DNA of 27,358 nucleotides from a virus: the IMG/VR virus record IMGVR_UViG_3300025646_000269, positions 1-27,358 of that record. One strand, 5' to 3'. The position numbers were made by a program, and so were the translations under genes. How positions within the stretch are numbered: position 1 is the stretch's first letter; each line of letters begins with the position of its first letter. Shown here piece after piece: positions 12,252 through 19,520 of the stretch. The notes beneath the pieces were generated by a model. It was not told the origin of the DNA. It searched no databases and saw only the letters and a list, made by a program, of their open reading frames with translations.

Positions 12252-13769
12252 ATGAGCAACGTAATTGTTGACACTACAGATCAATGTAGTGCAGTTCTAA
12301 ATAGATTTAAAGGTAATGGTACTACAACTACTTTTACCTTTAGTTTTACATATTTGAATTGGGATGACATCCGTTGTTATCTTTATAATGACGGACTTGG
12401 TAAGTGGGATGAAGTTAACAGCAACCTGTTTATTCAAGGCTCTACAGCATCGCAGGTAACGTTTCTAACAGCTCCTCCTGCCCCTGCTGATCCCTCATTT
12501 GATAACGTTATTATTGCCCGTCATACTCTTCTAGATGATGGGCTTAATGCTATCTTTTACCCTGGGTCTTCTGTTCGTGCTGAAGACCTTAATGAAAACT
12601 TCGATCAACTTCGCTTTGCTATTCAAGAAGCACGTTGTGATCTGGAGAACTTAGAGGATATCTACATTCGTGATACTGATATCCTACAACGTACTGAACA
12701 AGAAGCTGGCCTTTGGTTGCCTGATGGTGATCAAGAGAAGCTCCCTACAACAGGAGCTGCTGCTGCACGTCATGATGTATTGGTACGTGATACTGTACCA
12801 ACTAATCCTCCTGTACAACAGCCTGGTAAGTCTTGGCAAAACACTGACAAGTGTTGGTCTAGTTACTGGAACCCTGAAGCTAATGCCTGGGTTGCTTATG
12901 TAAACACTGGTCCTCGTGGTGTACAAGGCGCTCAAGGCATCCAGGGTATTCAAGGTCCTACAGGCCCTCAAGGTCTCCAGGGACCGCAAGGTGAGCAAGG
13001 TATCCAAGGTATCCAAGGGGAAGTTGGTCCTCAAGGTCCTCAAGGTGAGCAGGGTATTCCTGGTTATGTACAAGATGTTATTGGTGGTTCTGGTATTACC
13101 AGCACTGATGATGGGCTAGGTAACTACACTATTGATCTTGCTGCAACTCTTACAACACAAGCAGATGTTGGCTTCAAGACGATTGATCTTGTTACCGACA
13201 CTTTCCAGATCTTAGGTGGTACTGGTCTTACTTCTAATACCCATACTCAAGGTATTACCATTGATCTCAATAACACCACAGTAATTCCAGGTAGCTATAG
13301 CTATGCCAACATTACTGTTGATCAACAAGGTCGTCTAACTGCTGCTAGTGATGGGGTTGCTCCACTTACTAGTTCTGATATTGATGTCACTATTCAGAGC
13401 TATGATGCAGATACAGCTAAGACTGATGTTGCTCAAACCTTCACTGCTGCTCAGCGTGGCTCATATGTAACGCTCACTGATGCTGCTACCATTGCTGTTG
13501 ATCTGAGTCTTGGTAATAACTTCCAAGTTACCCTTGGTGGTTCAAGAACACTCGGTGCTCCTACTAATGTTGTAGCGGGTCAGAGTGGGGTAATACGAGT
13601 CGTCCAGGACGGTTCTGGTTCTAAGACACTTTCCTACGATACTATCTACAAGTTCCCTGGTGGTGTTGCACCAACACTAACAACCACAGCTGATGCTGTA
13701 GATCTTCTGGCATATCATTGTGAGTCAGCTACTCGTATTGCTGTTCGATTTATTGGTGATGTAAAATGA
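12252..13769 (+). CDS. Tail fibre protein with T7-type adaptor, collagen-like stalk and C-terminal knob
   Basis: The product has 505 residues. Residues 1-170 resemble the T7 gp17 N-terminal anchor domain ([20 protein letters not shown], then [30 protein letters not shown]), which docks on the nozzle. Residues about 195-220 contain a carbohydrate-binding-like segment ([21 protein letters not shown]). Residues 220-270 are 17 uninterrupted G-X-Y triplets, expected to form a trimeric collagen-like stalk. The C-terminal 110 residues ([20 protein letters not shown] and following) are a beta-rich phage fibre tip domain. The stop overlaps the next start in ATGA. No Shine-Dalgarno is seen. Confidence 0.9.
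12909..13061 (+). repeat. Collagen-like G-X-Y tract (17 triplets) in the tail fibre
   Basis: The 153 bases encode 17 consecutive Gly-X-Y triplets such as [21 protein letters not shown] and GIP. At DNA level it is a degenerate 9- or 18-base repeat built on GGT-N3-CAA units. Such tracts are prone to length variation by slippage. That could tune fibre length. Confidence 0.92.
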
Positions 13770-17060: not shown

Positions 17061-18266
17061 ATGAGCTTTCTATTCCCTGCCAATCCAGCAGATGGTGATA
17101 TTGTAGTTCGTGATAATCTACTTGCAACATACGATGCAGCTACTAATACCTGGAGTGTAGGTGAAGTTCCTACATATCCAGGTGTTCCTGGTCCTGCTGG
17201 CCCTGCTGGTCCTACGGGACCTAAAGGTGACCCTGGTGAAGGAGTTAATATTGCTGGTACTGTTGCTGCTGAGGTAGATCTTCCGAATGATGCAGATCCG
17301 AATACCTTCTGGATTGTAACTGATACTAATACTCTGTTCTTCTGGGATGGAGCCTCGTGGTTTAACCTTGGTGGTCCTATTCAAGGCCCCACTGGTCCTC
17401 AAGGTCCTGCTGGTACTAATGGTACAAATGGTACTAACGGTACTAATGGTCTTGGTTGGTATGATACTAGCATTACCAGTTCAGAAGGTAATTATCAAAT
17501 TACTTTCCTTAGTAATGATGGCCTAACTTTTACTACTGACAACCTGGTTGGTCCTGCAGGAGCATTGCAAATTGCTACTGAAGATACGGTTGGTGGTATT
17601 AAAATTGGACGTGGTATCTCCATGGAGGATGATGGTACTGCCAATATTAACACTGCATATGTTGACCTTGAGACTGTACCTATTGAGTCTTATGGTTATA
17701 ACTTGATGTATGAACCTGTTGTTTTCCGTATGGGAGAGCAAGATGGTTCTGGTGAGTATATTACCACTACACTTAATGGTCCTGCAGGTTCAGCTGCTGG
17801 TGTTCAATATCTTTTGAGATCTGATCCTAACAACAGTGCTCCGCATGTGTATAGTATTCCTATGCCTGCAGAAGCTGATGCAGCTCTGTGTTACATGTTT
17901 GCGTCTTCAATGATGCAACCAGGTAGTAACTATACTGGTGAAGATAACTATGCATTCCGAGCATATCTTGAGTATGAGTTGACACTGACTAATGCTACTT
18001 ATCAAAACGATGAGGATAGCACTTCTACTGTCATGATTATCGCTCCTACTCATAATATGACTTGTGGTTGGAGTGCACAAACAGTAGACAAACGTCAAAG
18101 CGTTCTACCTTATACAAAGATCTTTAAGATTATTTTTGATAAAGGAGCTACTGTTAACTTTAACCTTATTGCTTCTACTATTGAAGCTAACTGGGGCAAT
18201 ACACGGGTAACAGGTTATCCTGTACGCTTCCAAGTTATTCCTTATCAAACAACAGATAAAGTATAA
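17061..18266 (+). CDS. Second collagen-like fibre protein
   Basis: The 401-residue product opens MSFLFPANPADGDIVVRDNL, a start shared by many cyanophage structural proteins. Two collagen-like tracts follow: residues about 41-62 (GVPGPAGPAGPTGPKGDPGE) and about 109-120 (GPTGPQGPAGTNG), the latter running into four GTN units. Between them NTFWIVTDTNTLFFWDGASW is a small beta domain typical of fibre shafts. The remainder (about 150-401) is beta-rich with no recognised enzyme motif and probably forms the receptor-binding or capping domain. Base composition returns to the AT-rich phage norm. The stop TAA overlaps the next ATG by one base. Confidence 0.75.
   Translation: MSFLFPANPADGDIVVRDNLLATYDAATNTWSVGEVPTYPGVPGPAGPAGPTGPKGDPGEGVNIAGTVAAEVDLPNDADPNTFWIVTDTNTLFFWDGASWFNLGGPIQGPTGPQGPAGTNGTNGTNGTNGLGWYDTSITSSEGNYQITFLSNDGLTFTTDNLVGPAGALQIATEDTVGGIKIGRGISMEDDGTANINTAYVDLETVPIESYGYNLMYEPVVFRMGEQDGSGEYITTTLNGPAGSAAGVQYLLRSDPNNSAPHVYSIPMPAEADAALCYMFASSMMQPGSNYTGEDNYAFRAYLEYELTLTNATYQNDEDSTSTVMIIAPTHNMTCGWSAQTVDKRQSVLPYTKIFKIIFDKGATVNFNLIASTIEANWGNTRVTGYPVRFQVIPYQTTDKV
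17412..17447 (+). repeat. Tandem 9-base repeat encoding (GTN)4
   Basis: Four tandem units of GGT-ACW-AAY encode Gly-Thr-Asn four times, directly after a collagen-like tract. Third-position changes between units (ACT/ACA, AAT/AAC) show that the array is not brand new. Slippage could still change its length. Confidence 0.9.
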
Positions 18267-18613: not shown

Positions 18614-18759
18614 TGGCTGAAATTCCATTCCCTGGTGGTGCCAAAGATCAAGATGTGTTTTTCCATGAAGATAAGATCTGCATTTATCACGGTGATATTA
18701 ACACTTGGGAGTGTAGAGCTATTGAAGTTGGAGAATATACCGAAGATCTGGGGGACTAA
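18613..18759 (+). CDS. 48-residue protein in the fibre/lysis junction
   Basis: This short frame runs from ATG 18613 (overlapping the previous TAA) to TAA 18757-18759, whose last base begins the next ATG. The product starts MAEIPFPGGAKDQDVFFHED and continues KICIYHGDINTWECRAIE. Precise one-base overlaps on both sides (TAATG) make it convincing despite its size. The 'hY.gd...WeCR' pattern resembles the short beta units that close fibre shafts, but no function can be assigned. Confidence 0.72.
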   Translation: MAEIPFPGGAKDQDVFFHEDKICIYHGDINTWECRAIEVGEYTEDLGD

Positions 18760-18998
18760 TGGTAGAAGCCGGTGTCTCCGCAGCGTTAGCACTCATTACG
18801 GGTGCTTTTGTTTTATTTAATCGAGTCAGCGGACGCATCAATGACGTTGACCGACGAGTAGATGGTGTTGAACTACGTGTAGCTCAATACTATGTTTCTA
18901 AACACGACTTAGAAAACGCCATGGATAAACTCGAAGGGCGTATGAGTCGTATAGAAGTTAAACTTGATGCAATCCTTACTAACACTACCCCACATTAA
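18759..18998 (+). CDS. Single-pass membrane protein with coiled coil (holin candidate)
   Basis: The 79-residue product has one N-terminal membrane segment (residues about 4-21, AGVSAALALITGAFVLFN), followed by a charged heptad-like helix (residues about 22-70, with VDRRVDGVELRVAQ and KLEGRMSRIEVKLDAIL). This matches a widespread small cyanophage protein type. It lies upstream of the small terminase, near the slot held by holin gene 17.5 in T7. A holin, holin regulator or virion-anchored membrane protein are all possible; sequence alone does not decide. Confidence 0.75.
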   Translation: MVEAGVSAALALITGAFVLFNRVSGRINDVDRRVDGVELRVAQYYVSKHDLENAMDKLEGRMSRIEVKLDAILTNTTPH

Positions 18999-19000
18999 TC

Positions 19001-19138
19001 ATGGCCTTCCTTGAATCTGCTATCTTCTGGATCATCGTTGCTGCTGCTAGTGAAGTCATCGCTCTGACTCCGCTTAAGTCTAACAGCATCATCCAGCTTG
19101 TATTGCAAGCATTGAACGCTATTAAGCCAAAAAAGTAA
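19001..19138 (+). CDS. 45-residue membrane protein (holin candidate), zero-frame product
   Basis: ATG 19001 opens a frame ending at TAA 19136-19138. The product (MAFLESAIFWIIVAAASEVI, then ALTPLKSNSIIQLVLQALNA, then IKPKK) has one hydrophobic helix at about residues 7-22, a second amphipathic helix, and a basic tail. It lies 2 bases after the previous gene and is of the size and place expected for a T7 gene 17.5-like holin. The last sense codons are AAA AAG inside a perfect -1 slippery heptamer (19129-19135), so a longer frameshifted form is likely to exist. Confidence 0.75.
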   Translation: MAFLESAIFWIIVAAASEVIALTPLKSNSIIQLVLQALNAIKPKK

Positions 19139-19161
19139 AAGCTGAGGAAGCTGTTACTCAG
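19129..19161 (+). promoter_or_regulatory. Putative programmed -1 ribosomal frameshift signal
   Basis: The heptamer A AAA AAG (19129-19135) is in the correct X XXY YYZ register of the 45-residue gene and is followed at once by the zero-frame stop TAA. Six bases later a hairpin can form: CTGAG (19142-19146) pairs with CTCAG (19157-19161) across a 10-base loop. Slippery site, short spacer and stem-loop are the three standard parts of a bacterial or phage -1 frameshift element. Confidence 0.6.
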
Positions 19162-19320
19162 GCAATAGAAGAATTAAATCTTCCCCAATCAACCGTAGAT
19201 CAACCTATCTTCACCGAAGTCGGTACTTTTGGTGAGGAGGGTTGGTCTATTTCTTTAACAGCACCATGGCAAGAAAAGGAAAAGCTACAGAAGACCAATT
19301 CAACGAACTCCACAACCTAG
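19135..19320 (+). CDS. -1 frame extension of the 45-residue membrane protein (about 106 residues in total)
   Basis: After slippage at 19135 the -1 frame reads VKAEEAVTQAIEELNLPQST and continues through VDQPIFTEVGTFGEEG and WSISLTAPWQEKEK to a TAG at 19318-19320. It adds 61 residues and overlaps the small terminase by 55 bases. The frame has no start codon of its own near the junction and would fill an otherwise empty 127-base gap in a region where genes usually touch or overlap. The added tail is acidic and soluble, which would give a membrane protein with a cytoplasmic or periplasmic domain. A sequencing indel in the A-run is the main alternative. Confidence 0.5.
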   Translation, partial: VKAEEAVTQAIEELNLPQSTVDQPIFTEVGTFGEEGWSISLTAPWQEKEKLQKTNSTNSTT

Positions 19321-19520
19321 TTACGCAAGAACTTCTTAAGCGTATTAAGGCTGGTGAAGCAACAACTGCTGATCTTAAAGCAGCTTGTGATTGGTTGGTT
19401 AAAAATGATATCTCCGGTGTTGCTTATGAAGGTAACCCGCTAGATAAATTGGCAACTATTATGCCTAAAGTTGACCCAGAACTCGTTCAAACCAGGTTAT
19501 ATGGCCAGAAGTACAGCTGA
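19266..19520 (+). CDS. Terminase small subunit (T7 gp18-like, DNA maturase A)
   Basis: The 84-residue product (T7 gp18 has 89) has the family layout: a basic start, a helical segment with NLVTQELLKRIKAGEATTAD then LKAACDWLVKNDI, and a C-terminal block DPELVQTRLYG. It recognises the packaging site and stimulates the large terminase. ATG 19266 is chosen because the frame start at 19242 is only a TTG and the family begins MARKGK-like. A GGAGG at 19236-19240 lies 25 bases upstream, too far for optimal use, so translation may depend on ribosomes arriving in the overlapping -1 frame. The gene overlaps the next by 20 bases. Confidence 0.85.
   Translation: MARKGKATEDQFNELHNLVTQELLKRIKAGEATTADLKAACDWLVKNDISGVAYEGNPLDKLATIMPKVDPELVQTRLYGQKYS

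Follow-up and report, generated by a model that had tools for sequence, protein, structure and literature searches.

The DNA studied here is a virus record of 27,358 bases, and the whole of that stretch is referred to below as the window. The features described at the locus of interest all lie on the plus strand. The locus begins with a gene for a 79-aa protein (18759-18998) that falls in phrog_12220, a family of unassigned function, and has an N-terminal hydrophobic segment followed by a coiled-coil-like remainder. Next to it is a zero-frame gene coding for a small membrane protein of 45 aa (19001-19138), which matches phrog_22542 with an E value of 2.7e-20, where again no function is assigned. 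A check of the sequence established that the membrane protein ends in IKPKK, with the final codons CCA AAA AAG TAA, and that the slippery heptamer A AAA AAG (19129-19135) is in register and abuts the zero-frame stop TAA (19136-19138). The original prediction had placed this heptamer in the register for tandem -1 slippage just before the membrane protein stop, and its coordinates were found to be exact. The -1 frame holds a tail (19135-19320) of 61 sense codons that bears a coding signature in that frame, starting with GTA at 19135 and ending with TAG at 19318-19320, with base 19135 being read in both frames; joined to the membrane protein it makes a product of 106 aa. The sequence also bore out the predicted layout of this open frame, which crosses a 127-base gap before the ATG (19266) of the gene coding for the small terminase subunit TerS (19266-19520) and shares the initial 55 bases of that gene.

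Relatives of the membrane gene were collected from three IMG/VR scans, one genome scan and annotated records, giving at least 175 distinct loci. The best 80 loci were kept per scan, and the sample is thus tilted toward close relatives of the three queries. Since the query of the first scan included the tail, the resulting bias was checked by scans with the zero-frame sequence alone, and among the matches listed these returned the heptamer in 85 of 87 distinct new loci. Conservation of the heptamer across related cyanophages, which had been put forward as a check of the prediction, was clearly seen, as an in-register heptamer was found zero or one codon ahead of the stop in 159 of the 175 loci among the matches listed. 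Of these, 147 have A AAA AAG, 11 have G GGA AAG and one has A AAA AAA, and the distance to the stop is 0 sense codons in 36 loci and 1 in 123. When only dissimilar representatives were counted, 79 of 89 had A AAA AAG and the remaining 10 had G GGA AAG; these 89 were drawn solely from heptamer loci, for which reason 159/175 is the fair figure for frequency. In every one of the 159 listed heptamer loci the -1 tail reaches 41 residues or more, with a median of 81, and the median open length after the heptamer is 13 codons in the +1 frame as against 81 in the -1 frame.

Among phage records, tblastn detected the membrane protein in the podovirus-type Synechococcus phages 7B11-B, WH11-B and S-B28, as well as in S-CBS1, S-CBS3, KBS-S-2A and S-EIVl. 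In all seven cultured phages an in-register heptamer lies just ahead of the stop and the -1 frame stays open over a long distance, the heptamer of S-EIVl being G GGA AAG. The arrangement proved much commoner than the original prediction had envisaged, being also found in siphovirus-type phages, where it adjoins lysozyme genes, and, as read from these sequences, the putative frameshift arrangement spans a large virus group, mainly viruses of cyanobacteria. In none of the database records examined were the membrane protein and the tail annotated as one product. Three membrane-gene loci (L253, L254 and L255) were located on bacterial-genome bins and are probably misbinned phage contigs.

The heptamer appears to be maintained as nucleotides. 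In the codon preceding AAA AAG the third base was A in 148 of 148 cases among the matches listed, with ten codon types represented at this site (Ala, Gly, Pro, Thr, Lys, Glu, Val, Ser, Gln and Leu). In the 20 codons upstream no third base is less frequent than A (485/3021), yet here it is invariant, which points to the nucleotides of the heptamer, and not the amino acids encoded, as the target of selection. Given how these genes use codons, about 3.5% of loci would be expected by chance to have A AAA AAG at a random x-Lys-Lys end, as against the 79 of 89 dissimilar representatives in which it is seen.

The tail itself has the features of a conserved protein. The original prediction had called for a synonymous bias in the -1 frame, and such a bias was evident, with a dN/dS of 0.19 for whole tails in 54 disjoint pairs and with differences by codon position of 410/263/957. 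Over the first 12 codons past the heptamer, the zero frame gave a dN/dS of 1.5 and the +1 frame one of 2.0, whereas the -1 frame stood at 0.13; by this signature, selection acts on the -1 frame as protein from its first codons. Between the window and its close relative L024, the part of the tail before TerS showed 11 synonymous and 2 nonsynonymous codon changes. Tail homologues are also found as stand-alone proteins, namely S-CRM01 g111, S-CRES gp104/gp115, S-CBS2 gp048 and the T4-like cyanophage family GC410, which profile-profile comparison matched at an E value of 2.8e-7 when all tails were included and 2.2e-12 with podovirus tails; in the window this similarity falls in a conserved C-terminal part of the tail (19195-19269, VDQPIFTEVGTFGEEGWSISLTAPW). 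A structure model of a long tail from a relative was of modest confidence (pLDDT 74, pTM 0.39) and showed a beta-hairpin together with a long helix, and a comparison of this modest-confidence model with known folds returned no significant match, nor did a search of the tail sequence against PDB return any. Like the membrane protein, the tails matched solely families of unknown function in PHROGs, with no homology to tail-assembly chaperones, nor did either of them match any named family, known holins and antiholins included.

Sixteen of the 175 listed loci are without the heptamer, and in 14 of them no -1 tail is reached from the membrane gene. The tail is missing from the KPRK group (L077-L082), in which an endolysin gene comes directly next, and from L055, L125, P60 and S-SRP01. 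In S-CRES1 and S-CRES3 a tail homologue is encoded as a separate downstream gene, and in S-CBS2, which has no heptamer, the tail is a separate gene that starts from GTG in the overlapping -1 frame. The sole real exception among the 16 is L144, which retains a -1 tail behind A AAG AAG, a point that counts against a programmed frameshift; the site may be a naturally weakened or decaying one. Thus, L144 and S-CBS2 aside, slip site and -1 tail are retained or lost together in the 175 listed loci. On a tree of the short membrane proteins the heptamer changes 8 times and the tail 7, and the two mostly change jointly, in 4 supported independent pairs, a number too small for significance. Natural comparisons are at hand in the loci that have neither site nor tail, in those with a separate tail gene and in the one with a weakened heptamer. 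In S-CRES3 (L012:1120-1160) and S-CRES1 (L019:1150-1182) the stretch that parts the membrane gene from its separate tail gene contains a terminator-like structure, a GC-rich hairpin with a T-run, which might offer another route to a minor tail product.

A 5-bp hairpin, CTGAG/CTCAG (19142-19161, with arms at 19142-19146 and 19157-19161), had been pointed out in the window and is a possible stimulator. The hairpin is indeed present six bases past the heptamer, but it is weak and is not conserved as such across the family, as it scarcely rises above shuffled sequences (z -0.94, with 37 of 200 shuffles folding equally well) and, although intact in L024, is one pair short in L023 and gives way to different stems in sister phages. 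Family-wide, the sequence just past the heptamer folds more strongly than shuffles do: when 60-base segments starting 0-30 bases past it were folded, the mean z against shuffles was -1.2 to -1.7, compared with about -0.5 elsewhere, and against synonymous-codon shuffles it was -1.5 at +15 and -0.5 at +90. Covariation in support of any single stimulatory stem was absent from three group alignments, which speaks against the programmed frameshift and led us to reject one conserved stem. An upstream Shine-Dalgarno-like stimulator was likewise rejected, no enrichment being seen at the dnaX spacing. It is likely that the slippery site is aided by local structure, which would vary with the lineage.

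Taken together, the conserved heptamer and -1 frame, the synonymous bias and the lack of a zero-frame fusion support the original reading, and the locus very probably uses a programmed -1 ribosomal frameshift to make a short membrane protein and a minority form that carries the tail. Other explanations were weighed against this one. A slip site that is a homopolymer could raise the suspicion that a sequencing or assembly error has split a single zero-frame gene. The arrangement is found in seven cultured phages and in more than 150 distinct loci, those with G GGA AAG included, and a zero-frame fusion of membrane protein and tail, which was sought among the relatives as evidence against a frameshift, was absent from all 175 loci listed; an error is rejected by this conservation across loci and its likelihood is negligible. 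Transcriptional slippage, by which RNA polymerase would add or skip an A on the A-run and normal ribosomes would read the fused message, agrees with the six or more A of most sites and with the longer runs of a few loci (L029, L030 and L050). However, six A, the number in the window, is short for efficient polymerase slippage, and eleven loci use G GGA AAG, with just three G and three A, so that the long homopolymer expected for this process is lacking. Polymerase slippage moreover has no need for codon register, yet the register is always kept. The G GGA AAG loci lead us to reject it as a general route, and we regard it as very unlikely.

It could also be argued that the tail is an independent overlapping gene with a start of its own and that the heptamer is incidental, as the annotation of S-CBS1, S-CBS3 and S-EIVl gives portions of the tail a gene of their own with an internal TTG, ATG or GTG as start, and S-CBS2 and S-CRES1/3 do carry separate tail genes. 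Nevertheless, selection already acts in the -1 frame over the first 12 tail codons. Just 40 of the 159 listed loci have ATG, GTG or TTG within these codons and the other 119 have none, so that a separate start fails to account for such early selection in most loci. In the window, as in the close relatives L023 and L024, none of the three occurs ahead of the conserved part of the tail. A separate gene would also not explain why the heptamer is retained at the synonymous level. Independent initiation as the sole route is rejected by the selection on the first 12 tail codons and is highly improbable. More weight can be given to the proposal that the frameshift is real and serves mainly to deliver ribosomes to the next start, that of lysozyme or TerS, and thereby sets the dose of that protein, with the tail protein being secondary. 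In 85 of the 86 loci measured, the end of the tail frame and the nearest candidate start of lysozyme overlap by 4-32 bases, an overlap of a kind that is typical of translational coupling and may serve it here; in the window the corresponding overlap with TerS is 55 bases. On the other hand, the tail protein is clearly under purifying selection, is homologous to stand-alone proteins and is present in loci with other downstream genes, and as the main role of the site ribosome delivery seems rather unlikely.

Three things can be read directly from the sequences, namely the register of the heptamer, its association with the tail and a selection that begins with the first codons of the -1 frame, and a programmed frameshift built on them would work as follows. 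Most ribosomes would stop at the TAA and release the 45-aa membrane protein, while a minority, as we suppose that share to be, would slip by -1 with both Lys-tRNAs on A AAA AAG, bypass the stop and make the 106-aa form. The slipped ribosomes would terminate within the start region of the next gene, which is TerS here and lysozyme in most siphovirus-type relatives, and termination over the next start may couple the translation of that gene. The short form could be a holin, and the long form a minor regulatory form that sets the timing or dose of lysis, whether antiholin-like or otherwise.

The suggestion that the membrane protein is holin-like was upheld in part, as its size, hydrophobic segment and gene order agree with it, but homology to holins was not found. 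Hydropathy and helix prediction gave traits of a holin, that is, 45 aa with hydrophobic helices and a charged C-terminus, and modelling on the relative L038 placed the helices at about residues 7-22 and 28-41, with a basic KPKK C-terminus. None of the holin models in Pfam, NCBIfam and PHROGs matched the membrane protein, and this lack of a match to any known holin, antiholin or named family weighs against the holin part of the explanation. A lysozyme gene was found downstream in 93 of the 159 listed heptamer loci and TerS in 22, and 44 had neither within 600 bases downstream, a number that includes 6 in which the contig ends sooner. In T7 the holin gene 17.5 sits immediately ahead of TerS. Because of the lysozyme neighbors and of the position before TerS, as in T7 gene 17.5, the short form can be read as holin-like, and it resembles a holin without being classed as one. 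A wider interpretation, in which cyanobacterial phages would possess a dual-stop lysis switch with one slip site setting both the ratio of holin to extended form and, by delivering ribosomes to the start of lysozyme (or TerS), the dose of that product, is offered only tentatively. Roughly half of the loci encode a relative of the upstream 79-aa protein ahead of the membrane gene, and this protein is possibly a second lysis protein.

Minor C-terminally extended proteins are known from other frameshifts. In T7, the minor capsid protein 10B is produced from gene 10A/10B by a -1 frameshift near the end of the gene, a likeness in a T7-like phage; the present case differs in that a tiny membrane protein would be extended, slippage would take place right at the stop, and homologues of the tail exist as proteins on their own. 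The tail-assembly chaperone of lambda (G/GT) is made by a -1 shift at G GGA AAG, the heptamer of eleven of our loci, and that frameshift is also conserved over many phages. Unlike G/GT, the site described here does not lie between the tail-tube and tape-measure genes, belongs to a membrane protein and is mostly A AAA AAG. The latter heptamer, which is shared with the frameshifts of E. coli dnaX and the IS3 family, is strongly slippery for bacterial tRNA-Lys; in dnaX it is accompanied by a hairpin and by a defined Shine-Dalgarno-like stimulator upstream, whereas no upstream stimulator at a fixed spacing and no covarying stem were found at the present loci. If this is a lysis gene, it may also be compared with lambda S, a dual-start gene from which holin and antiholin, two versions of one membrane protein, arise in a fixed proportion, the difference being two starts in lambda S and two stops here. 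In phage SPP1, a shift at the stop codon yields gp17.1*, a minor extended form of gp17.1 (PMC6316719). The position at the stop is common to both cases, but the SPP1 shift is +1 and affects a tail-tube protein, and here it would be -1.

To our knowledge, no frameshift has been known in this gene class. The open-licence literature searched contained nothing relevant on frameshifting in holin genes or cyanophages, and the main text of the PRFect paper mentions neither holins nor cyanophages. The mechanism is a known one, and that searched literature yielded neither the gene nor the tail, nor conservation of this breadth. Few frameshifts are known in phages, and this locus would join them as a deeply conserved one. 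It also provides a joined reading for tails that were missed or shortened by annotation in the seven cultured phages examined, and suggests how abundant cyanobacterial viruses may set the dose of lysis or packaging. Two other observations were made on gene content. In 7B11-B an extra gene, annotated as recombination endonuclease VII, is inserted between the tail and TerS (L001:1809-2198), and the window has two fibre-like genes (12252-13769 and 17061-18266) with collagen-like GXY repeats.
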